From NCBI RefSeq assembly GCF_009936215.1, contig NZ_AP019551.1:589501-653500 (forward strand): a DNA stretch of 64,000 nucleotides, in the 5' to 3' direction. A program made the position numbers and the translations under genes. Of the stretch, positions 40,836 to 53,723 are shown in pieces. The notes below the pieces were generated by a model that saw only the letters and a list, made by a program, of their open reading frames with translations, made no database searches and was not told the origin of the DNA. The stretch's first letter is position 1. Every line of letters begins with the position of its first letter. The DNA comes from Athalassotoga saccharophila. Its GTDB lineage: Bacteria; Thermotogota; Thermotogae; Mesoaciditogales; Mesoaciditogaceae.

Positions 40836-41048
40836 GGTCTTGATCACGCATCATTGTTTTATTTTTGCCATAGGCTACTTTTTGAATCCCTAATCTCTAT
40901 TCACTAATGTCTATTTCTTTTTTGCCACAACCTACCCGCCATTTTTCAATTTTCCATTTTCAATTCTCAATTTTTTCTACCCGCCACGTGCCACCAGCCA
41001 CCTGCCATTTTTAATTGTCCATTATCAATTCTCAATTGTCAATTCTTT
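40836..41048 (+). repeat. Heptamer tract 1, several unit classes
   Basis: Four CTA-type heptamers in phase at 40886-40913 (ATCCCTA, ATCTCTA, TTCACTA, ATGTCTA) are followed at 40923-41048 by alternating GC-rich ACNNGCC and AT-rich ATTNTCA heptamers. A less regular stretch before them (ATCACGC, GTTACTC) may be a fourth class. It marks the left edge of the toxin-antitoxin island, and no ORF is present. Confidence 0.75.
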
Positions 41049-41102
41049 AGGTAGGATCTTTAATATGATATATTGTATAATAAATTTTAGGAGGTGGAAG
41101 AG

Positions 41103-41369
41103 GTGAAATTCATTACAAGCAAAGAGATCAGAAACAATCCGGCCGCGCTTTGGTCGGAGGATGAAACTGTTATAATGGTCAACGGTAAACCCAAGGCGAT
41201 AGTTCTAAAAGCAGAAGATGACATAGAAGAACAAATTAGAAATATAAAAAGATTAAGAGCTCAAACGGCTCTTGAAAAATTGCGCTTTTATTCTGTTAAA
41301 AAAGGGCTTGATCTTTTGTCAGATGAAGAAATAATAAATGAAATTGAGAAGATAAAAAAAGAGATATGA
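41103..41369 (+). CDS. Antitoxin of a PIN toxin module (Phd/YefM-like)
   Basis: An 88-residue protein. The N-terminal FITSKEIRNNPAALW and IMVNGKPKAIVLK stretches resemble Phd/YefM-type DNA-binding antitoxins; the C-terminal half is helical and charged, as expected for the toxin-binding part. GTG 41103 is chosen because AGGAGG (41089-41094) sits eight bases before it and overlaps the alternative GTG 41094. A TATAAT lies at 41076-41081. It overlaps the PIN gene by four bases. It probably represses its own operon. Confidence 0.75.
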   Translation: MKFITSKEIRNNPAALWSEDETVIMVNGKPKAIVLKAEDDIEEQIRNIKRLRAQTALEKLRFYSVKKGLDLLSDEEIINEIEKIKKEI

Positions 41370-41761
41370 ACGTCGTACTTGATACCAACGTTCTAATTTC
41401 AGGAATAATAAATCCAAAAGGTATTCCGGCAGATATATTGAACTTCGTTTTAAATGGTAGATTAATTTTAAATCTTGATGCAAGAATACTAATCGAGTAC
41501 GATAGAGTTTTGAGAAGCCCAAAATTTGATTTTCCAAAAATTTACACGGAAGCGCTTTTGCAATTTATTGAGAGTGAGTCTGTTTTGATCACTCCAGAAC
41601 CAATAAAAGCGGATCTTCTTGATCCTTCAGATCTTTCTTTCATAGAAGTCGCCATTTACAGAGATATTCCCTTAATAACTGGTAATATCAAGCACTTTCA
41701 AAATATAAAGAATCTTAAAGTGTATTCTCCAAAAGATTTTTTGGAAAAATTCAACATTTGA
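41366..41761 (+). CDS. PIN-domain toxin (VapC-like ribonuclease)
   Basis: A 131-residue PIN protein. Acidic active-site residues are recognisable in VVLDTNVLISG (Asp6), the IEYDRVL helix and DPSDLSFIEVA; the later LITGNIKHF motif is typical of the COG1569 branch of toxin PIN domains. PIN toxins cleave tRNA or rRNA in a Mg-dependent way. Its start overlaps the antitoxin stop (ATGA). All key residues are in place, so the module looks functional. Confidence 0.88.
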   Translation: MNVVLDTNVLISGIINPKGIPADILNFVLNGRLILNLDARILIEYDRVLRSPKFDFPKIYTEALLQFIESESVLITPEPIKADLLDPSDLSFIEVAIYRDIPLITGNIKHFQNIKNLKVYSPKDFLEKFNI

Positions 41762-41826
41762 CCCCCATTTAGAATCGATCTTGCCTTCCATCATCAGGGT
41801 GATTATGTAAAATCCATATCAAATTT

Positions 41827-42003
41827 TTCAATTGTCCATTTTCAATTCTCAATTGTCCATTTTTCTACCCGCCACGAGCCACACACCACCCGCCATTTTT
41901 AATTGTCCATTTTCAATTCTCAATTGTCAATTTTTTTCCACCCTCTACGTGCCACAAGCCACCTGCTACCCGCCATTTTCATGTTATAATGAATCGGGGT
42001 GAT
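41827..42003 (+). repeat. Heptamer tract 2 ending in a promoter and ribosome-binding site
   Basis: Two rounds of AT-rich heptamers (ATTGTCC, ATTTTCA and ATTCTCA types) followed by GC-rich heptamers (ACCCGCC, ACGAGCC, ACGTGCC types), phased with only small slips at the poly-T bridges. The last ATTTTCA runs straight into TGTTATAAT and GGGGTGAT. It fills the 41.76-42.00 kb gap. Confidence 0.9.
41982..42003 (+). promoter_or_regulatory. Repeat-borne extended -10 and SD for the RelE module
   Basis: TG-T-TATAAT (TATAAT at 41985-41990) is followed four bases later by CGGGGTGAT. The expected transcription start falls at the SD itself, so the leader would be only about ten bases. Confidence 0.7.
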
Positions 42004-42007
42004 GAAA

Positions 42008-42208
42008 TTGGCCAAAAATCAAAGAGTCGATATTCGTTATTTTATAGATAAACTTGACGATGAAGATAAAGAGAAATTGTCGTTCTTTGTTGAAGAACTC
42101 TTAAAAAATGAAAAATACAAAAAATTGAGGGAAGAAATAGAAGATAGACGCGAAGAAATAAAGACAGGTCATATCCTATCTCATAAGGATTTTTGGGATG
42201 GAGTTTGA
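42008..42208 (+). CDS. Small antitoxin paired with a RelE-family toxin
   Basis: A 66-residue, strongly charged helical protein from TTG 42008, eight bases after the GGGG of the repeat-borne SD; this matches the SD-start spacing of the other repeat-driven genes. The RREEIKTGHILSHKDFWDG tail is typical of RelB-like antitoxins, which wrap around the toxin. No clear DNA-binding fold is visible. It overlaps the toxin gene by 11 bases. Confidence 0.72.
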   Translation: MAKNQRVDIRYFIDKLDDEDKEKLSFFVEELLKNEKYKKLREEIEDRREEIKTGHILSHKDFWDGV

Positions 42209-42455
42209 GATTTTTTACGCTAAAAGTGTCAAAAAAGATATTTTGAGGATTGACAGGAAAGATCTTACAAAAATAAAAGAACAAATAGAATTGTTAAAAT
42301 ATTTCCCCAACTTACCTAACCTGAAAAAGCTCTCTTCTCATCCTCTTGCAGATTACCGATTAAGAGTAGGAAATTACAGAGTGCTTTTTGATGTTGATTG
42401 GAAAAAGAAAAAAATTTACATATTAAAAATAGGAAACAGAGAAGATGTTTATTGA
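42198..42455 (+). CDS. RelE/ParE-family toxin
   Basis: An 85-residue protein with the compact RelE fold pattern: two N-terminal helices, then strands ending in ADYRLRVGNYRVLFDVD and the C-terminal IGNREDVY, corresponding to the HRxxVY signature of the family. RelE toxins cut mRNA in the ribosomal A site, while ParE relatives poison gyrase; the RLRVGNYRVLF motif favours the RelE side. Start ATG 42198 lies inside the antitoxin 3' end. Confidence 0.85.
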   Translation: MEFEIFYAKSVKKDILRIDRKDLTKIKEQIELLKYFPNLPNLKKLSSHPLADYRLRVGNYRVLFDVDWKKKKIYILKIGNREDVY

Positions 42456-42493
42456 CGTTTTTTGATTTAAAAATTTCAACTTTTCATTTCCCA

Positions 42494-42604
42494 TCGCCCA
42501 TTTTCAATTGTCCATTTTCAATTGTCAATTTTTCATTGTCGTATTCCACCCGCTACGAGCCACACACCACCCGCCATTTTCATGTTATAATGAGTCGAGG
42601 TGAT
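42494..42604 (+). repeat. Heptamer tract 3 ending in a promoter and ribosome-binding site
   Basis: AT-rich heptamers (ATTTTCA, ATTGTCC and ATTGTCA types) followed by ACCCGCT, ACGAGCC and ACACACC types, then ATTTTCA and the TGTTATAAT/GAGGTGAT end. No ORF fits this gap. Confidence 0.88.
42583..42604 (+). promoter_or_regulatory. Repeat-borne extended -10 and SD for the MNT gene
   Basis: TG-T-TATAAT (TATAAT 42586-42591), then GAGGTGAT at 42597-42604, three bases before ATG 42608. Confidence 0.7.
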
Positions 42605-42607
42605 GTG

Positions 42608-42892
42608 ATGAATAAAGTTGATTTTATAAGATCACAGATACTTCCTGTATTTAAAAAATATAACGTGAAAAGAGCCGGAATTTTTGGATCTGTTGCAAGA
42701 GGAGAAGATAACATTCAAAGCGATGTCGATATTCTGATAGAATTAGATGATAATCTGAGTTTGTTCGATTATATAAGAATGAAATTGGAAATAGAGGAAA
42801 TTCTTGGCAAAAGCGTAGATCTTGTCGAGTATAATGCCATAAAACCTTCAATAAAGAACAAAATTTTGGAAGAAGAAATTAGGATCTTATGA
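42608..42892 (+). CDS. Minimal nucleotidyltransferase (MntA-like antitoxin)
   Basis: A 94-residue nucleotidyltransferase with the core motif GIFGSVARGE and SDVDILIEL, the GSx10DxD metal site of the MNT family, and a further acidic residue in VDLVEY. MntA proteins neutralise HEPN ribonucleases (HepT) by AMPylating them. The start ATG 42608 follows the repeat-borne GAGGTGAT. Its stop overlaps (ATGA) the start of a HEPN gene that has been cut to 19 codons, so it lacks its partner here. Confidence 0.88.
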   Translation: MNKVDFIRSQILPVFKKYNVKRAGIFGSVARGEDNIQSDVDILIELDDNLSLFDYIRMKLEIEEILGKSVDLVEYNAIKPSIKNKILEEEIRIL

Positions 42893-42948
42893 GAGATCAA
42901 AAATTGTATTTGATTGATATAGCGAAAAGCATTCAGTATATCAAATGA
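42889..42948 (+). pseudogene. Truncated HEPN (HepT/DUF86) toxin gene
   Basis: ATG 42889, overlapping the MNT stop, reads MRDQKLYLIDIAKSIQYIK and then TGA. This matches the first helix of DUF86/HEPN toxins, which usually run to about 110-140 residues and carry a catalytic RxxxxH later. The coding match ends just where heptamer tract 4 begins, so the catalytic part has been lost. A remnant rather than a real small protein. Confidence 0.75.
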
Positions 42949-42954
42949 AACTTT

Positions 42955-43087
42955 GCTACAACCTACCTGCCACCTGCTACCCGCCATTTTCAATTGTCCA
43001 TTCTCAATTCTCAATTGTCAATTTTTTTCCACCCGCCACGTGCCACCTGCCACCCGCCATTTTCATGTTATAATGAATCGGGGTGAT
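42955..43087 (+). repeat. Heptamer tract 4 ending in a promoter and ribosome-binding site
   Basis: The cleanest tract: GC heptamers (ACCTGCC, ACCTGCT, ACCCGCC), five AT heptamers, a T-rich bridge, four more GC heptamers and ATTTTCA before the promoter. Apart from a three-base slip at the bridge, everything is in 7-nt phase. Confidence 0.92.
43066..43087 (+). promoter_or_regulatory. Repeat-borne extended -10 and SD for hicBA copy 1
   Basis: TG-T-TATAAT (TATAAT 43069-43074) and GGGGTGAT (43080-43087), three bases before ATG 43091. Confidence 0.7.
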
Positions 43088-43090
43088 TTG

Positions 43091-43303
43091 ATGAGAGTAT
43101 TTACGGTTGTAATAGAAAAGGACGAAGATGGTTATTATGCCTATTGTCCTCAATTGCAGGGATGCTATTCGCAGGGCGATAATTATGAAGAAGCCCTTGA
43201 AAATATAAAAGATGCCATTAAACTTCATATCGAAGATAGAATTGAAAATAATGAACAAATACCCTTTGTTGATTCTGTAACTTTGACGACTGTTGAGATA
43301 TGA
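43091..43303 (+). CDS. hicB: HicB-family antitoxin, copy 1
   Basis: A 70-residue HicB with the degraded-RNase-H-like core: FTVVIEKDEDGYYAYCPQLQGC, then a helix with EEALENIKDAIKLHI. It binds and blocks HicA. No C-terminal DNA-binding domain is attached, so autoregulation would need another route. The start follows the repeat-borne SD. It overlaps hicA by four bases. Confidence 0.88.
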   Translation: MRVFTVVIEKDEDGYYAYCPQLQGCYSQGDNYEEALENIKDAIKLHIEDRIENNEQIPFVDSVTLTTVEI

Positions 43304-43524
43304 GTGTTTTTCCTGTTGTAACTCCTGATGAAGCAATTAGAGTTATAAAAAATTATGGTTTCACTTTATCCCGTCAAAGTGGAAGTCATATGATTTTCAA
43401 AAATAAACTAAACAAAAGAATAACAATTCCCTATCATGCCGGTAAGACCCTGCATCCAAAGATAGTAAAAAGTATAATTGAAACACTTGAAATCTCTATT
43501 GATGAATTTAAAGAAAACTTGTAA
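43300..43524 (+). CDS. hicA: HicA-family mRNA interferase toxin, copy 1
   Basis: A 74-residue dsRBD-like toxin. The catalytic His lies in SRQSGSHMIFKN, and the later TIPYHAGKTLHPKIVKSII is the family signature. HicA cleaves mRNA independently of ribosomes. It begins inside the hicB stop (ATGA), and all motifs are intact. Followed by heptamer tract 5. Confidence 0.9.
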   Translation: MSVFPVVTPDEAIRVIKNYGFTLSRQSGSHMIFKNKLNKRITIPYHAGKTLHPKIVKSIIETLEISIDEFKENL

Positions 43525-43535
43525 AAAAAACAACG

Positions 43536-43640
43536 GTTTTCATTGTCCATTTTCCATTCTCAATTGTCAATTTTTCCACCCGCCACGTGCCACCTGCTAC
43601 CCGCCATTTTCAATTGTCAATTCTTCCTGTGTTATAATCG
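43536..43640 (+). repeat. Heptamer tract 5
   Basis: AT heptamers, a bridge, GC heptamers (ACCCGCC, ACGTGCC, ACCTGCT types), and a short second AT block that degenerates into the promoter of the DUF433 module. Confidence 0.88.
43630..43638 (+). promoter_or_regulatory. Extended -10 for the DUF433/DUF5615 module
   Basis: TG-T-TATAAT (TATAAT 43633-43638). Unlike the others it is followed by a longer leader of about 34 bases, with an AGGAG ribosome-binding site. Confidence 0.6.
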
Positions 43641-43672
43641 ATTTGAATGATTACGTCATCAACGAGGAGTGA

Positions 43673-44295
<623 letters not shown>

Positions 44296-44332
44296 AATCT
44301 TTTACTTATCTGCCGAAAACTTCTAAACCATC

Positions 44333-44516
44333 AGACATTTTCCATTCTCAATTTTTTCCACCCGCCACGAGCCATACACCACCCGCCATTTTTCATTGTC
44401 CATTTTCCATTGTCAATTTTTTCTACCCTCTACGTGTTGCCTGCTACCCGCCATTTTTCATTGTCCATTTTCAATTGTCAATTTTTTCCACCCGCCACGA
44501 GCTACCTGCTGTTTTG
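44333..44516 (+). repeat. Heptamer tract 6, three rounds
   Basis: Three AT-block/GC-block rounds in phase, with T6 bridges between them. It ends without a promoter, beside the 3' end of a minus-strand module. It fills the 44.30-44.53 kb gap. Confidence 0.88.
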
Positions 44517-44534
44517 GTGGTATATATTTCACCG

Positions 44535-44801
44535 TTACGCCAAATTTTTAGGTTTTATTAACTTCTTTGATTTGCCTTTCTTGCTTGCATTTAAAATGGT
44601 TATTCCTACAATTTCGCCTTTTTCGTATCTTATTATGGTATCATCATCCGTGAGTTCCGAATCATCAGCATGACTTGGTTTTTTGAAATTGATGTACAAA
44701 ACATCGGCTTCTTTATCATAAGAAGTCCAAATTCTTGAATATGGTATTGACAAAAGATCAGGCACGATATCTAATATTTTTTTCATTTCTTTCGTTGCCA
44801 T
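44535..44801 (-). CDS. DUF2283 family protein, probable antitoxin
   Basis: An 88-residue protein with the DUF2283 core: SYDKEADVLYINFKKP, followed by DDDTIIRYEKGEIVGITILNAS. Members are often the second gene of two-gene toxin-antitoxin-like modules. It starts 19 bases inside the upstream nuclease-like gene, so translation is coupled. It ends next to heptamer tract 6. Confidence 0.75.
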   Translation of the reverse strand: MATKEMKKILDIVPDLLSIPYSRIWTSYDKEADVLYINFKKPSHADDSELTDDDTIIRYEKGEIVGITILNASKKGKSKKLIKPKNLA

Positions 44802-45094
44802 ATTTTTCGCCTCTTTTCAAGTTGACGTTTTCTTTTGGTGAAAAAAGCGGTAATCACAAAACCGTCTTTTAGATTCGTTTCTTTATATACGCATACCAAA
44901 TATTTCCCTTCTTCTATCTCACGCGTAGCGATATGTTCACCAAGTTTTCCTTCATAAATCACATCTGGTTCTTCTATAGTTTCAAGAACGTCATAATAGT
45001 AACCGGCCATTTCCGAGTGTTCTTCAGTGATATGAAACCATCTTTCATCTGTCAATCTTATAGGAACACCATTTTTGGATCTGACATTATTCAT
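44783..45094 (-). CDS. RelE/barnase-like nuclease-fold protein (PBECR/DUF4258 type), probable toxin
   Basis: A 103-residue basic protein. RLTDERWFHITEEHSEM with paired His residues, then GKYLVCVYKETN and FVITAFFTKR, resembles the PBECR/BECR nuclease folds annotated near DUF2283 proteins. Catalytic residues are not certain. On the minus strand, AGAGGT precedes the ATG and TGATATAAT (45148-45156 on the map) is a likely promoter. With the DUF2283 gene it forms the only inverted two-gene module of the island. Confidence 0.62.
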   Translation of the reverse strand: MNNVRSKNGVPIRLTDERWFHITEEHSEMAGYYYDVLETIEEPDVIYEGKLGEHIATREIEEGKYLVCVYKETNLKDGFVITAFFTKRKRQLEKRRKIWQRKK

Positions 45095-45147
45095 AAGGTA
45101 CCTCTTTGAAACATTTTTGAGATGCGGTTAAATTGACTTTCATTTTC

Positions 45148-45156
45148 ATTATATCA
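45148..45156 (-). promoter_or_regulatory. Extended -10 for the minus-strand nuclease/DUF2283 module
   Basis: On the minus strand TG-A-TATAAT, about 55 bases before the start at 45094; this is outside the heptamer repeat. Confidence 0.55.
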
Positions 45157-45165
45157 TTTAGTGTG

Positions 45166-45233
45166 TCATTTTTTCCACCCGCCACAAGCCACCTGCTACC
45201 CGCCATTTTCATGTTATAATGAATCGGGGTGAT
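45166..45233 (+). repeat. Heptamer tract 7 ending in a promoter and ribosome-binding site
   Basis: A short tract with a bridge, then four GC heptamers (ACCCGCC, ACAAGCC, ACCTGCT types), ATTTTCA and the promoter end identical to tracts 2 and 4. Confidence 0.87.
45212..45233 (+). promoter_or_regulatory. Repeat-borne extended -10 and SD for hicBA copy 2
   Basis: TG-T-TATAAT (TATAAT 45215-45220) and GGGGTGAT (45226-45233), four bases before TTG 45238. Confidence 0.7.
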
Positions 45234-45237
45234 AAAA

Positions 45238-45459
45238 TTGGAGAGCCTTAATTACAGGATATTTTTAAGGAAAGAGCCTGAAGGAGGATATACAGTTATC
45301 GTTCCATCTCTTCCGGGATGTGTAACTTTTGGGAATACGATAGATGAGTCGATAAAAATGGCACGTGAAGCGATAAAACTTTACTTAGAATCTCTTAAGG
45401 CTCATGGAGAGCAGATTCCAAACGAAGAAAATATTCTCGAGTATACACTTACTCTATGA
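45238..45459 (+). CDS. hicB: HicB-family antitoxin, copy 2
   Basis: A 73-residue HicB: NYRIFLRKEPEGGYTVIVPSL, PGCVTFGNTIDESIKMAREAI and a short tail. TTG 45238 is used because the repeat-borne SD is eight bases before it. It is clearly divergent from copies 1 and 3, so it was not made by a recent local duplication. It overlaps hicA by four bases. Confidence 0.87.
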   Translation: MESLNYRIFLRKEPEGGYTVIVPSLPGCVTFGNTIDESIKMAREAIKLYLESLKAHGEQIPNEENILEYTLTL

Positions 45460-45668
45460 GCAAGTTTCTGTCCGTAAATTCGAAAAGAATAATAGAAATA
45501 CTTGAAAAAAATGGATTTGTTCTTGATAGAGTGAAAGGCTCTCATAGAATTTACTTTAATGAAAAGACAAAGAGGAGAGTTGTTGTTCCATTTCATAAAG
45601 TGGATCTTCCAATCGGTACTTTGCTTGAGATTCTGAAAGAGGCTGGCATATCGAGAGATGAACTGTAA
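45456..45668 (+). CDS. hicA: HicA-family mRNA interferase toxin, copy 2
   Basis: A 70-residue toxin. The catalytic region is LDRVKGSHRIYFNE, followed by VVVPFHKVDLPIGTLLEILKEAGI. The protein looks intact. Coupled to hicB through ATGA and followed by heptamer tract 8. Confidence 0.9.
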   Translation: MSKFLSVNSKRIIEILEKNGFVLDRVKGSHRIYFNEKTKRRVVVPFHKVDLPIGTLLEILKEAGISRDEL

Positions 45669-45680
45669 AAATAGTTAAAG

Positions 45681-45752
45681 AATTGTCCATTTTCAATTCT
45701 CAATTGTCAATTTTTTCCACCCGCCACGAGCCACAAGCCACCCGCCGTTTTT
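45681..45752 (+). repeat. Heptamer tract 8
   Basis: One AT block (ATTGTCC, ATTTTCA, ATTCTCA types), a T6 bridge and GC heptamers ACCCGCC, ACGAGCC, ACAAGCC types, without a promoter end. It lies beside the 3' end of the minus-strand ATPase gene. Confidence 0.87.
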
Positions 45753-45770
45753 AGAGGAGACATTTTGAGC

Positions 45771-47162
45771 CTAATATATCGAATCGAAGATTTTAAAAAG
45801 GTGCACGTTTTTATTCTCCCGAGCATAGTTTATCAACTCTTGTGAAAATGATGATTTTGAATAAATCAAAAATTCTGGTTTGGAAGTTAAATCAAAGTGT
45901 TTTTCGACTTTTTTTAAAAGATCGAACAAAATCTTAATATCGACAATCTTGTTGGTGTATTTGCATTCTCCGAATAAAGCTGGCTTTCCGCTTTTATCAA
46001 TCCCGACTATGTCTATTTCGTCATCTCCGTTCCACCATCGCCCTATTTTCAAAATTTCATGGTCAAAATATCTTTCAGATGCCAAAGCCGTTGCATTTTG
46101 CCTTGCCAACTCTTCGTAGACCAAACTTACGTGCTTTATGAATTCATCCTTAAACTTTTGAACAACGTATCCTATATTTCCAATTTCAAGGAAACTTCTA
46201 TTCGGATAAACGAATTTAAACCAAAAAGAGATGAAATTGTCTTTTAAGAAGTAAAGACCTTTTTTGCTTTTTTCAGGATTGATTTCAGTTATCGGGACAT
46301 CTCTGTAAAGCAGATCCATCTGGGCGAGTATGCTCAGGTAATAGCCAAGAGAGTTCTGTCCGACTTCCATTTTTGATGCTATTTCAGAAAGTTTATGGCT
46401 TCCATTTGCGATTGTTTTAAGTATTGAAAAGTACACTCCTATCTCTTTAAATTCTTTTCTAAGAAGAAAATATGGCTCTTCATACAAAAAACCGTTTTTG
46501 TCGAAAATGTGCTTTGATACATTTTCTTCCACCGTTCTTTCTATGTCAAAGACTTCTACGTATTTTGGAACACCACCTGTAACTGAGTAAAATTCAATGA
46601 TTTCTTCTATATTTTTGTCCTCGAAAAAACTTTTATAGTTTTCAAAGTTCAAGGGTTTCAAGTTGATCTGAGATGTTCTTCTTCCGTAAAGAGGGCTTGT
46701 GTAATTGAGAGTTTCTGCATACATCATGTTTATTATAGAACCACAAAGTATGAGCATGACTTTTCTTTTACTTAAAATTTCATCCCATATCTTTTGAATG
46801 ATGGAAGAAATGGATTTGTTTCCGGTGACAAGATACTGGTATTCGTCTATAACTATAACCATCTTTTGATCTCCGAATGAAATTAGATCGAAAATGTCGT
46901 ACCATGAAAGTCTGTTTTCAGGTCTTAAAACCCCAAGTTTGGTTTTTTCATAAGCAACCTCTTGAAACTGTTTAAGATTTGATTCTTCGCTTTCTTCGGT
47001 GGCAAGGAAATAAATTGATTTTTTGTTTTCAATAAACTTTTGAAGCAGCGTTGTTTTGCCAACCCGCCTTCTGCCGTATATGATGTAAAGATTGCTTTCG
47101 TTTGATGAAAAATCTGCTTCCATCCTTTTTAGTTCTGATTCTCTTCCGACAAAGGAAAACAT
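45771..47162 (-). CDS. Archaeal-type ATPase with a DUF234 nuclease-like domain
   Basis: A 463-residue P-loop protein. Walker A is YGRRRVGKTTLL (about 29-40), Walker B MVIVIDEYQYL (about 101-111), and GSIINMM is a sensor-like motif; a winged-helix region follows. The C-terminal DUF234 part has EIDIVGI followed by FGECKY, a PD-(D/E)xK-like nuclease pattern. Such ATPases occur in mobile, TA-like or defence contexts, but their function is not well known. On the minus strand TGCTATAAT and GGGAGGAG precede the start. It breaks the row of two-gene modules. Confidence 0.8.
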   Translation of the reverse strand: MFSFVGRESELKRMEADFSSNESNLYIIYGRRRVGKTTLLQKFIENKKSIYFLATEESEESNLKQFQEVAYEKTKLGVLRPENRLSWYDIFDLISFGDQKMVIVIDEYQYLVTGNKSISSIIQKIWDEILSKRKVMLILCGSIINMMYAETLNYTSPLYGRRTSQINLKPLNFENYKSFFEDKNIEEIIEFYSVTGGVPKYVEVFDIERTVEENVSKHIFDKNGFLYEEPYFLLRKEFKEIGVYFSILKTIANGSHKLSEIASKMEVGQNSLGYYLSILAQMDLLYRDVPITEINPEKSKKGLYFLKDNFISFWFKFVYPNRSFLEIGNIGYVVQKFKDEFIKHVSLVYEELARQNATALASERYFDHEILKIGRWWNGDDEIDIVGIDKSGKPALFGECKYTNKIVDIKILFDLLKKVEKHFDLTSKPEFLIYSKSSFSQELINYARENKNVHLFKIFDSIY

Positions 47163-47191
47163 TTCTATTACTCCTCCCGTGCTTTTAAAAA

Positions 47192-47200
47192 ATTATAGCA
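47192..47200 (-). promoter_or_regulatory. Extended -10 for the ATPase gene
   Basis: On the minus strand TG-C-TATAAT, with a palindrome AACTATAATAGTT at about 47203-47215 just upstream that could be an operator. Confidence 0.55.
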
Positions 47201-47285
47201 TAAACTATAATAGTTAAGACTATAAAAATGAGGATCTTTAATTCGATCCCGCATTACGTGCGGTATTACGAGAGAGTGTCTATCT

Positions 47286-47482
47286 TTTCCACCCCCTACG
47301 TGCTACCTTCTGTTTTTAATTGTCCATTTTCAATTCTCAATTGTCCATTTTTCCACCCGCTACGTGCCACAAGTCACCTGCTGTCTTTAATTGTCCATTT
47401 TCCATTCTCAATTGTCAATTCTTTTCCACCCGCCACGAGCCACAAGCCACCCGCCATTTTGTTGTATAATGAATCGAGGTGG
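47286..47482 (+). repeat. Heptamer tract 9, three rounds, ending in a promoter
   Basis: GC and AT blocks alternate three times, with units such as ACGTGCT, ATTGTCC, ACAAGTC and ACGAGCC. The last GC block leads through ATTTTGT into TGTATAAT and GAGGTGGT. It fills the 47.17-47.48 kb gap. Confidence 0.88.
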
Positions 47483-47483
47483 T
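47464..47483 (+). promoter_or_regulatory. Repeat-borne -10 and SD for hicBA copy 3
   Basis: TATAAT (47465-47470) directly after a G of TTG, then GAGGTGGT at 47476-47483, three bases before ATG 47487: a slightly decayed version of the common end. Confidence 0.6.
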
Positions 47484-47486
47484 TTG

Positions 47487-47693
47487 ATGAGAGCATTTAC
47501 CGTTTTGATTGAAAAGGATGAAGATGATTGGCTTGTTGGAAAGGTTGTCGAACTTCCAGGCTGTTTTACTCAAGCAAAAACTCTTGATGAATTGATGGGC
47601 AGAATGCGTGAGGCCATAGAAGGATACCTTGAGGTTGAAGATATTTCAAATGAAAAGATAGAATTCGTAGGCGTTCAAGAGATAGCCTTATGA
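47487..47693 (+). CDS. hicB: HicB-family antitoxin, copy 3
   Basis: A 68-residue HicB starting MRAFTVLIEKDEDD, very like copy 1 at its N-terminus (MRVFTVVIEKDEDG), then LVGKVVELPGCFTQAKTLDELMGRM when read in pieces. Its coupled hicA is frameshifted, so this antitoxin may now stand alone. Regulated by the repeat-borne promoter. Confidence 0.87.
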   Translation: MRAFTVLIEKDEDDWLVGKVVELPGCFTQAKTLDELMGRMREAIEGYLEVEDISNEKIEFVGVQEIAL

Positions 47694-47919
47694 GTCCACA
47701 ATTACCAAGGATTTCTGACTCCGATATGGTTGCTTTTCTCAAACTAAAAGGCTTTTCCGTTGTAAGAATACGCGGAAGTCATCATGTACTTAAAACAACA
47801 ATGGAAAAATTGTTGTCGTACCAGTTCACTTAAAAGAAACTCTTGGTCCAGGGATTATAGTGGCAATTTTGAGACAATCAGAAATTTCGATGAAAGAATA
47901 CATAGGCTTCTTTTCTTAA
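47690..47919 (+). pseudogene. hicA: HicA toxin gene, frameshifted (copy 3)
   Basis: ATG 47690 reads a normal HicA N-terminus up to VRIRGSHHVLK, then goes out of frame near 47795 and stops at 47833-47835. From the same place the -1 frame continues as NNGKIVVVPVHLKETLGPG and ends at 47919 with EYIGFFS, the missing C-terminal half. One base has been lost around TTAAAACAACAATGG. No good slippery heptamer is present in frame, so inactivation or a sequence error is more likely than programmed frameshifting. Confidence 0.83.
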
Positions 47920-47926
47920 TTCCTTT

Positions 47927-47972
47927 CCGTCCACTACCCGCCACGAGCCACCTGCCATTTTCATGTTATAAT
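47927..47972 (+). repeat. Heptamer tract 10, short, with a promoter end
   Basis: Three GC heptamers (ACTACCC-type start, ACGAGCC, ACCTGCC), ATTTTCA and TGTTATAAT. It is the last tract and borders the core operon. Confidence 0.8.
47964..47972 (+). promoter_or_regulatory. Repeat-borne extended -10 upstream of the 48-61 kb gene run
   Basis: TG-T-TATAAT (TATAAT 47967-47972), 28 bases before ATG 48000, where GGAGG (47991-47995) is the ribosome-binding site. It is the only promoter-like sequence I can find before this operon. Confidence 0.6.
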
Positions 47973-47999
47973 TAATTGATTTTAATTTATGGAGGATAT

Positions 48000-48773
48000 A
48001 TGATAGCCGTTATAACAGATCACGGATCGGATGATCTATTCATGGGTGTTTTAAAGGGCAATTTCTCTTATTTGCTTCCGAAGGAGGAGATCATAGAGGT
48101 TACGCGCCCAATAAGTTTTGGGGATTCTTATGTCGCCTCGTGCATAGCCGAACGTCTTGCGTGCCATTTGCCAAAATCGACCATTTTTATGATAGTTGTC
48201 GATGGTCAAAATGAGAGTGCAAGAAGACCTGTTGGGCTTCGCACAAAAGATGACAGGATCTTTATAGGCTTTGATAATGGTACCTTTACACTTCCAATAG
48301 AAAGATTTGGATTGAAACAGATAAGGGAAATAGATGTTCCTGAGGTCAAATTTTCCCTTTCTTTTACGAGATCTGTCCTTGATATCCTTATTCCCGTTGC
48401 CGTCGATCTTTCGAAAGGAAGAAATTTTGAGAGTATAGGAAGTATATACATGACTTTTTACGATCTCAAGCACAAAAGGGCAGGAATAGTCGATGGAAAA
48501 ATAAAAGGAGAGGTTGCTTTTATAAACGAACGCGGAGATATTTCTACGAATATACCTTTTGATTATCTCGAAAAGATGGGTCTTTCTCAGGAGGATAAAC
48601 TCAAGATCAACGGCAAATTATCAAGTATATCTCTCGATAGAAGGGCCGGACGAAAAAATGAACTCATCGTTTGCGAAGGACTGGGTGGATACGTCGAGAT
48701 AACGTCCCGGTATTCCCGGGCGGGAGAGATTTTGAATCTTCCGTCAAGATCAGAGATAGTCTTGGAGGTTTGA
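48000..48773 (+). CDS. SAM hydrolase (S-adenosyl-L-methionine hydroxide adenosyltransferase, DUF62)
   Basis: A 257-residue enzyme of the fluorinase-like fold that uses water to split SAM into adenosine and methionine. The start AVITDHGSDDLFMGVLKG and the later FIGFDNGTFTLPIERFG, ADLSKGR-like and GEVAFINERGDISTNIP stretches follow the family. ATG 48000 with GGAGG five bases upstream. It is the first gene of a 12-gene run; the next gene starts four bases after its stop. Adenosine made here could feed the purine phosphorylases at 20-22 kb, which is an inference. Confidence 0.85.
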   Translation: MIAVITDHGSDDLFMGVLKGNFSYLLPKEEIIEVTRPISFGDSYVASCIAERLACHLPKSTIFMIVVDGQNESARRPVGLRTKDDRIFIGFDNGTFTLPIERFGLKQIREIDVPEVKFSLSFTRSVLDILIPVAVDLSKGRNFESIGSIYMTFYDLKHKRAGIVDGKIKGEVAFINERGDISTNIPFDYLEKMGLSQEDKLKINGKLSSISLDRRAGRKNELIVCEGLGGYVEITSRYSRAGEILNLPSRSEIVLEV

Positions 48774-52065: not shown

Positions 52066-52755
52066 TTGGACAAAAGAGTCGAGGAGATTTTAAAGATATT
52101 GGACATAAACAAAGAATTGCCCTTTCCAGATCTTTTCATGGTTGCGATAACACATAGTTCTTACGCGAATGAAAACAGGGTTGAGTCTTACGAAAGACTT
52201 GAATTTCTCGGCGACGCGCTTGTCGGACTTGTCATAGCCCACAACGCCTTCGAACTTTTCAAAGACATAAACGAGGGCGAACTTGCAAAGATAAAGGCAG
52301 TCGTCGGCAGTGAGAAGGTACTCGCCGAGGTTAGCAAAGAGATAGGCCTTTCTAAACTCGTCCTCGTTGGAAAGAGTTTGAGTTCGGCCTCGGCAGGAGA
52401 ACTCGATTCGATCTACGCCGACACATTTGAATCTGTGATGGCCGCGGTCTTTTTAAATCTTGGCTTTGATGAGACCGAAGAGATGATATCGCGCCTTTTG
52501 AATGAGAAGATATTGGAAGTCATAGAGAAAAAATTGTTTTTCGATTACAAGACCGCACTGCAGGAATATACTCAAAGTAAGTTCATGAACCTTCCCGAAT
52601 ACGTGCTTATCGAAGAAAGTGGCCCTCCTCACAGAAGAAATTACGTATTCGAAGTCAGGATAAATGGAGAGGTTTACGGCAGAGGATACGGAAGATCTAA
52701 AAAAGAGGCCGAACAGGTGGCCGCGAAGATGGCGTACAAGAGGCTGAAAGAATGA
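52066..52755 (+). CDS. rnc: Ribonuclease III
   Basis: 229 residues. The signature ERLEFLGDALVG has catalytic Glu46 and Asp50; the second acidic pair lies in YADTFESVMAAVF. The C-terminal double-stranded-RNA-binding domain runs from about residue 160 (DYKTALQEYTQ) to the end. It processes rRNA precursors and other duplex RNA. TTG 52066 with GGAGG upstream. The order rnc - radical SAM - smc is found in other bacteria. Confidence 0.96.
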   Translation: MDKRVEEILKILDINKELPFPDLFMVAITHSSYANENRVESYERLEFLGDALVGLVIAHNAFELFKDINEGELAKIKAVVGSEKVLAEVSKEIGLSKLVLVGKSLSSASAGELDSIYADTFESVMAAVFLNLGFDETEEMISRLLNEKILEVIEKKLFFDYKTALQEYTQSKFMNLPEYVLIEESGPPHRRNYVFEVRINGEVYGRGYGRSKKEAEQVAAKMAYKRLKE

Positions 52756-53723
52756 AGGTTATTCCCATCTTTTTTCCAAATGCCGGATGCAAGCACAGAT
52801 GCGTCTTTTGCAACGAATGGATGGCGACGATGAAGACCATTCCCGTCTCCATCGAGGATGAGGTGGTAAATGCCTGCCGGATTTACCATGCCGATGAAGA
52901 TTCAGAAATAGGCCTTTACGGCGGGACCTTCACGGCAATGGAAAACTGGAGGGAGATTTTAAAGACAGTCCACGATGTGGCATTAAGAGTCGGGGTAAAA
53001 GGTATAAGAATATCAACAAGGCCGGACGAGATAAAGGATGTAGACTTTCTCGTCGATAATGGTGTCATGCATGTTGAAATTGGCGCTCAATCGATGGTCG
53101 AGAGGGTGCTTGTGGCATCGAAGAGAAATCACACGGCCGAAGATGTTGTAGTTGCGGCAAGAAGATTGAAGGAGGCGGGAATAAAAGTCTCAATCCATCT
53201 TATGACAGGCCTTCCGAATGATTCGAAAAGGGACGATATATATTCGGCCTTCGAGGTTGCCAAACTCCGTCCAGATAGCGTGAGAATCCATCCTACTCTC
53301 GTTTTGAAAAATACCGAACTTGAAAGGCTCTTTCTTTCCGGTGATTATGTCCCTCAAACTCTCGACGATGCCGTGGATGTGGTCTCCGATATGATAACCA
53401 TATTCAAAAATGATAAAATACAGATAGAAAGAATCGGGATGTATCAAGATAGCGAAACGATCGTCAATGTTGTGGCAGGGCCTTATCATCCGGCCTTTGG
53501 AGAGATGGCGCTCTCGGCTATGTACAAAAAATTCATAGATTCGGTCGGAGCGTTGGGTGTATGCGGACCGAAAAATATGAGATCGCAGATAATAGGAAGA
53601 AACAGGATAAAGATACCATTCGAAGAGAGTGAATATGTCTGTGCCATTGTCAGGAATAAGCGCGTTTATTTCGATGATTGGGCCGAACTTTACGTGTCAA
53701 GGCTCGGGGAGTTGATCGGGTGA
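52752..53723 (+). CDS. Elp3-like radical SAM protein
   Basis: A 323-residue radical SAM protein with the CxxxCxxC cluster motif in NAGCKHRCVFCNEW near the N-terminus. ISTRPDEI, VEIGAQSM and HLMTGLPND are typical of the Elp3/COG1243-like group. Unlike Elp3 it has no acetyltransferase domain. It is regularly found between rnc and smc, but its substrate is not known. The start overlaps rnc, and the stop overlaps the smc start. Confidence 0.85.
   Translation: MKVIPIFFPNAGCKHRCVFCNEWMATMKTIPVSIEDEVVNACRIYHADEDSEIGLYGGTFTAMENWREILKTVHDVALRVGVKGIRISTRPDEIKDVDFLVDNGVMHVEIGAQSMVERVLVASKRNHTAEDVVVAARRLKEAGIKVSIHLMTGLPNDSKRDDIYSAFEVAKLRPDSVRIHPTLVLKNTELERLFLSGDYVPQTLDDAVDVVSDMITIFKNDKIQIERIGMYQDSETIVNVVAGPYHPAFGEMALSAMYKKFIDSVGALGVCGPKNMRSQIIGRNRIKIPFEESEYVCAIVRNKRVYFDDWAELYVSRLGELIG

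Follow-up and report, generated by a model that had tools for sequence, protein, structure and literature searches.

Ten tracts of phased 7-nucleotide repeats, all facing the same way, alternate with small toxin-antitoxin or defence-type modules in the genome of the heat-loving bacterium Athalassotoga saccharophila (contig NZ_AP019551.1, positions 589,501 to 653,500; this 64,000-nucleotide stretch is called the window, and coordinates below are its own unless a locus label or the own genome is named). Our favoured explanation, to which we assign a probability of about 0.68, is that the tracts serve as seams in an array of cassettes, which are moved by homologous recombination between tracts. 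A cassette would comprise one tract and a small gene pair, mostly toxin-antitoxin, and in many cases an extended -10 promoter and a Shine-Dalgarno sequence of its own just after the tract. If similar tracts in direct repeat recombine, either within one chromosome or between the chromosome and incoming DNA, the genes between them would be inserted, deleted or reordered while their orientation relative to the tracts stayed unchanged, which would leave genes of either strand among many tracts that face one way. Direct-repeat homologous recombination thus predicts same-facing repeats, modules reordered with fixed orientation and seams inside the repeats, all of which are described below. We infer that RecA-type homologous recombination is the agent and the tract the element it recognises.

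Structure of the heptamer tracts

The tracts are built from two classes of heptamer, an AT-rich A-type (CMATTNT) and a GC-rich G-type (CYACNNG). Strict chains of at least three contiguous units occur 22 times on the forward strand, all within 40947-47961, and not at all on the reverse strand of the window, while order-3 Markov shuffles of the window yield a mean of 0.0. Segmentation with a chain model resolves ten tracts at 40925-47961, each 28-188 bp long and all on the forward strand, in which 151 units (87 A-type and 64 G-type) share one 7-nt register; most slips are of 1-3 T, where AT and GC blocks meet, and one slip is 'cgtatt'. In every tract the autocorrelation peaks at lag 7 (z 2.2 to 6.7 relative to shuffles), with the weakest signal in the two shortest. 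A sequence-only reading of this DNA had described the repeats as non-random, their two classes as following one register with slips only at poly-T bridges and all ten tracts as having one orientation whatever the direction of neighbouring genes, and this description holds, apart from the one slip just mentioned: the tracts stay forward beside the PBECR2/DUF2283 pair and the ATPase gene, both on the reverse strand. The additional CTA-ending class that it saw in tract 1 is also present, as four contiguous heptamers.

The usual order within a tract is an AT block, a T bridge, a four-unit GC block and CCATTTT, after which the series repeats. Since the order of GC units is conserved among the tracts of the window (CYACCCG, CCACGWG, CCACNNG, CYACCCG), the tracts represent copies of one super-unit, about 65-70 bp long; exact matches shared between them reach 53 nt and are mostly of 15-36 nt. 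The positional entropy of the aligned GC blocks within the window is not significant (p 0.10), a consequence of this conserved order. The tract region has no match in an Rfam covariance-model search, and folding of the ten tracts gives no notable fold (z between -0.9 and 0.7). The tracts and the modules between them are as follows.

40886-40913, forward: CTA-ending heptamers of tract 1 (ATCCCTA, ATCTCTA, TTCACTA, ATGTCTA)
40925-41046, forward: tract 1, 11 A-type and 6 G-type units
41094-41761, forward: module 1, small antitoxin-like open reading frame and PIN-domain toxin (PF13470)
41821-41979, forward: tract 2, 13 A-type, 9 G-type
41982-42003, forward: extended -10 and Shine-Dalgarno motif TGTTATAATNAATYGRGGTGAT, directly after the tract
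41999-42455, forward: module 2, small open reading frame and ParE/RelE-family toxin (PF05016)
42470-42580, forward: tract 3, 11 A-type, 4 G-type
42608-42892, forward: module 3, MntA-like nucleotidyltransferase, then a 19-codon stub gene
42956-43063, forward: tract 4, 7 A-type, 8 G-type
43092-43524, forward: module 4, HicB and HicA (PF15919, PF07927)
43540-43624, forward: tract 5, 8 A-type, 4 G-type
43679-44295, forward: module 5, DUF433 and DUF5615
44328-44515, forward: tract 6, 15 A-type, 11 G-type, a 65 bp super-unit repeated about 2.7 times in tandem, flanking genes convergent
44535-45094, reverse: module 6, PBECR2 (RelE-like nuclease) and DUF2283
45167-45209, forward: tract 7, 2 A-type, 4 G-type, chimeric, combining two tracts that stand apart in the sister species G010
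45229-45668, forward: module 7, HicB and HicA
45680-45751, forward: tract 8, 6 A-type, 4 G-type, between convergent genes
45771-47162, reverse: module 8, ATPase_2/DUF234 protein
47289-47460, forward: tract 9, 13 A-type, 11 G-type
47487-47919, forward: module 9, HicB plus a HicA-like gene whose frame is broken
47934-47961, forward: tract 10, 1 A-type, 3 G-type
48000-48773, forward: SAM_HAT, flanking core gene and synteny anchor

All nine inter-tract intervals hold small toxin-antitoxin or defence-type modules. Copies like TGTTATAATNAATYGRGGTGAT also occur at 42583, 43066, 45212 and 47462, giving 5 matches in total where 0 are expected. Two toxin genes are decayed, namely the stub after MntA, which lies at 42889-42948 and ends just before tract 4, and, as read from the sequence, the broken-frame HicA-like gene at 47690-47919.

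Exchange of cassettes between species

We refer to the own genome as G000 and to the genomes of relatives by labels such as G008, G009, G010, G011 and G012. The end of contig C3 in G010 (L108) carries VapBC, HicAB and PBECR2/DUF2283, three modules of the window, with tracts between them. Their order differs from that in the window, as does their location, adjoining dnaJ, and each shared module keeps the same orientation relative to the tracts. Module 1 is 92.6%, module 7 (HicAB) 93.7% and module 6 (PBECR2/DUF2283) 95.6% identical in DNA between the window and G010, while the core SAM_HAT gene is 74.8% identical, so the modules were probably exchanged after the two species split. The blocks of homology start and stop inside tracts. 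Seam stretches of 40-75 bp match two different partner tracts, tract 7 being visibly chimeric, and the seams fall at variable points within the tracts rather than at one fixed base.

The site before SAM_HAT differs from relative to relative. In G008 it holds a different HicBA pair, with a tract and the same promoter motif upstream and a short AT tract remnant downstream; in G009 it has neither tract nor cassette, and in G010 only a short AT remnant is left. A filled and an empty site can also be compared directly. At 52087-53250 of the own genome, two tracts enclose a 302-aa gene (at 52192) that has no Pfam match over cut-off, and an exact direct repeat of 48 nt flanks the insert on either side; the syntenic locus of G008 has one AT-type tract and no gene, with 86% identity on both sides. 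As expected of homologous recombination, then, cassette borders lie in shared repeats, and the filled site differs from the empty one by one repeat plus its cargo. A candidate 1.4 kb inversion in G008 (L095/L111/L131) was set aside as ambiguous, given the contig breaks there.

The tract family in the own genome and its relatives

A profile built from 15 tracts (E up to 0.01) finds 61 matches in the own genome, so the tracts are present beyond the window. It finds 28, 12 and 38 in three genus mates and 1-6 in each of four other family members, that is, matches in seven of the nine family members (Mesoaciditoga relatives) besides the own genome. A strict-pattern scan of 103 genomes of the phylum matched the family and gave isolated matches only elsewhere. 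The tracts of the window belong to a dispersed, heptamer-phased family of intergenic repeats of the genus, with about 45-60 copies in the own genome, and their orientation sign varies between loci genome-wide, unlike the uniformly forward tracts of the window. Syntenic tract positions are shared by G000 and G008 near 1350k, by G000, G008 and G010 near 1881k and 1883k, and further ones by G008 and G010. Since several tracts hold their place between conserved genes across species, the family is older than these species.

The tracts also border modules of other kinds. Five clustered regularly interspaced short palindromic repeat (CRISPR) arrays with the repeat GTTTTCATTCCTCAAAGGTAGGATAGAAAC lie at 1160k-1546k of the own genome:

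L088:5239-6704, CRISPR array
L091:5309-5404, CRISPR array
L092:5348-6894, CRISPR array
L093:5474-5604, CRISPR array
L094:5274-5397, CRISPR array

A tract stands at the trailer end of all five, two of the five have another beyond the leader, and the orientation is the same throughout. The element at the trailer is about 141 bp long, is phased in heptamers through further word classes and occurs in three tandem copies at two loci. The leaders of these arrays, about 430 bp long, are near-identical to one another. In G011 (L100) and G012 (L098, L099), tracts occupy every junction of the rhamnose-synthesis genes, several of them being pairs of inverted heptamers with a loop between. The rhamnose cluster is present twice in G012, one copy having AT-class tracts at the very junctions where the other has GC-class tracts, which suggests that the content of a tract is replaceable while its position stays fixed.

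Other phyla and known repeats

A scan for the composite pattern across about 85,000 species genomes, from which records of or near the own genome may have been left out by design, returned three loci: one in the genome of Mesoaciditoga sp. ARK-11, one in a Chloroflexi metagenome-assembled genome (MAG) and one in a Bacteroidales MAG. The last two (L166:3501-3606 and L168:3324-3470) have the same two classes on the same strand in the same register, the Bacteroidales composite consisting of two tandem super-units between genes, and by our own estimate well under one match would be expected by chance. As read from these MAG contigs, the two-class composite appears to occur in two other phyla. A viral contig with transposable-phage-like genes opens with a mixed heptamer tract of its own (L169:1-250; TAGCAAG units and GAAATTT/GAAACGC runs).

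Heptameric intergenic repeats have been described before, as the short tandemly repeated repetitive (STRR) sequences and GGGGAYT repeats of cyanobacteria, TAACTGA of Beggiatoaceae and GGGAATC of Xanthomonas, and a role in gene rearrangement has been suggested for them (PMC4679880, PMC4692102). Like these, the present tracts consist of tandem 7-nt units above chance, are intergenic, occur at many loci, form mixed assemblages and are sometimes arranged as inverted pairs. They differ in having words of their own, in combining two alternating classes, joined by T bridges, within a single register, and in flanking toxin-antitoxin and CRISPR modules that were exchanged between species. The comparison with cyanobacterial STRR made in the sequence-only reading is therefore apt as to kind and does not extend to the words themselves: TAACTGA, GGGGAYT and GGGAATC, the published Beggiatoaceae, Nostoc and Xanthomonas words, form no tandem pair on either strand of the window. 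In the open-access literature searched we found no published description of heptamer tracts in Thermotogota, in agreement with that reading, and, as far as we searched, the two-class composite and its place at the borders of exchanged toxin-antitoxin and CRISPR modules are new as well. That reading was borne out on phasing, orientation and likeness to known repeats; it missed the module and CRISPR borders, the movement between species and the occurrences in other phyla.

A possible parallel lies in the mosaic intergenic NIME/dRS3 arrays of Neisseria and in similar repeats, which are thought to promote homologous recombination of adjoining genes. Their units are longer and are not phased heptamers. 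For decades heptamer repeats have been known from several phyla, yet no role for them is accepted; here they are the borders of moved defence modules, and the idea that they provide portable homology, by which toxin-antitoxin and CRISPR modules are swapped with no need of an integrase, can be tested. If it is general, it would offer a simple route to the assembly of defence islands.

Weighing the explanations

The same observations could be read as regulation, with the tracts serving as promoter, enhancer or 5' leader repeats of the downstream gene, a role of the kind proposed for the TAACTGA repeats of Beggiatoaceae (PMC4679880). Most tracts of the window do lie directly upstream of an operon pointing the same way, the common -10 and Shine-Dalgarno motif comes after five of them, and those of G011 and G012 fill the intergenic gaps of a rhamnose operon. 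However, the genes on either side of tracts 6 and 8 converge, outside the window about one tract in two faces away from the next gene, others stand at CRISPR trailer ends, the promoter motif is outside the tract, and shared, reordered cassettes would be left unexplained, all of which makes regulation quite improbable. If the tracts were instead selfish or slippage-born satellite DNA in intergenic gaps, with incidental toxin-antitoxin neighbours, their unit length would have a ready origin, since earlier authors, as cited in PMC4679880, suggested that 7 nt may favour polymerase slippage, and tract 6, with its super-units of about 65 bp in tandem, shows local duplication. Slippage does not, however, account for dozens of loci that have both classes and the register in common, for cassettes shared and reordered at seams within tracts, or for the shared promoter motif after the tract, and we give this explanation very little weight. 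An unrecognised dedicated recombinase or element that used the tract as its site would account for the likeness to integron arrays with toxin-antitoxin cassettes, in which, as here, small modules stand in rows between repeats of constant orientation and cassettes are gained, lost and reordered. It would also fit a bias that plain recombination does not predict: on the main contig C1, which starts at the dnaA start codon, tract orientation is 9 forward to 2 reverse in one half and 2 to 12 in the other (Fisher p 0.0012; 0.009 with CRISPR loci counted once). Unlike integrons, though, the family has no integron integrase (TIGR02249) over cut-off in any of its ten genomes, the own assembly being estimated at 92% complete, and none near the island; there are no attC RYYYAAC/GTTRRRY core pairs in or around the ten tracts and no attC-like fold; the sites are mosaics of 28-188 bp, and the seams fall at variable places rather than at a single base. 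We regard such a recombinase as unlikely. A bolder version, in which a dedicated and unrecognised system would write mosaics in a 7-nt register at chosen junctions and move defence cassettes (toxin-antitoxin and CRISPR) between these, and would occur with the same pair of word classes, strand and register in at least three phyla, draws on the Chloroflexi and Bacteroidales composites, the AT and GC tracts at the same G012 junctions and the orientation by contig half; we hold it to be rather unlikely too.

Several points weigh against homologous recombination between tracts. The recombination is deduced from comparing genomes rather than directly observed, most genomes of relatives are draft MAGs, with contigs that break off at tracts, and few examples stand behind each type of seam. 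Many tracts sit singly between conserved genes with no cassette, and the lone tract at the empty G008 site is AT-type only and unlike both G000 tracts in sequence. The tracts could be passengers on cassettes moved by something else, and the explanation accounts neither for the 7-nt unit length nor for the origin of the classes.

Other candidate links were tried and dropped. GC skew at fourfold-degenerate sites gives no clear origin or terminus and no cluster of Thermotoga maritima-type DnaA boxes was found near dnaA, so we claim no connection between tract orientation and replication; titration of DnaA by CYAC units likewise found no support. S23/IVP proteins as the driver of the tracts were rejected, as the own genome is rich in tracts yet has no such gene. 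One genome of family f6, G028 (L009), carries about 20 S23/IVP four-helix genes, two of which flank its only GC-class tract, near C8:21955.

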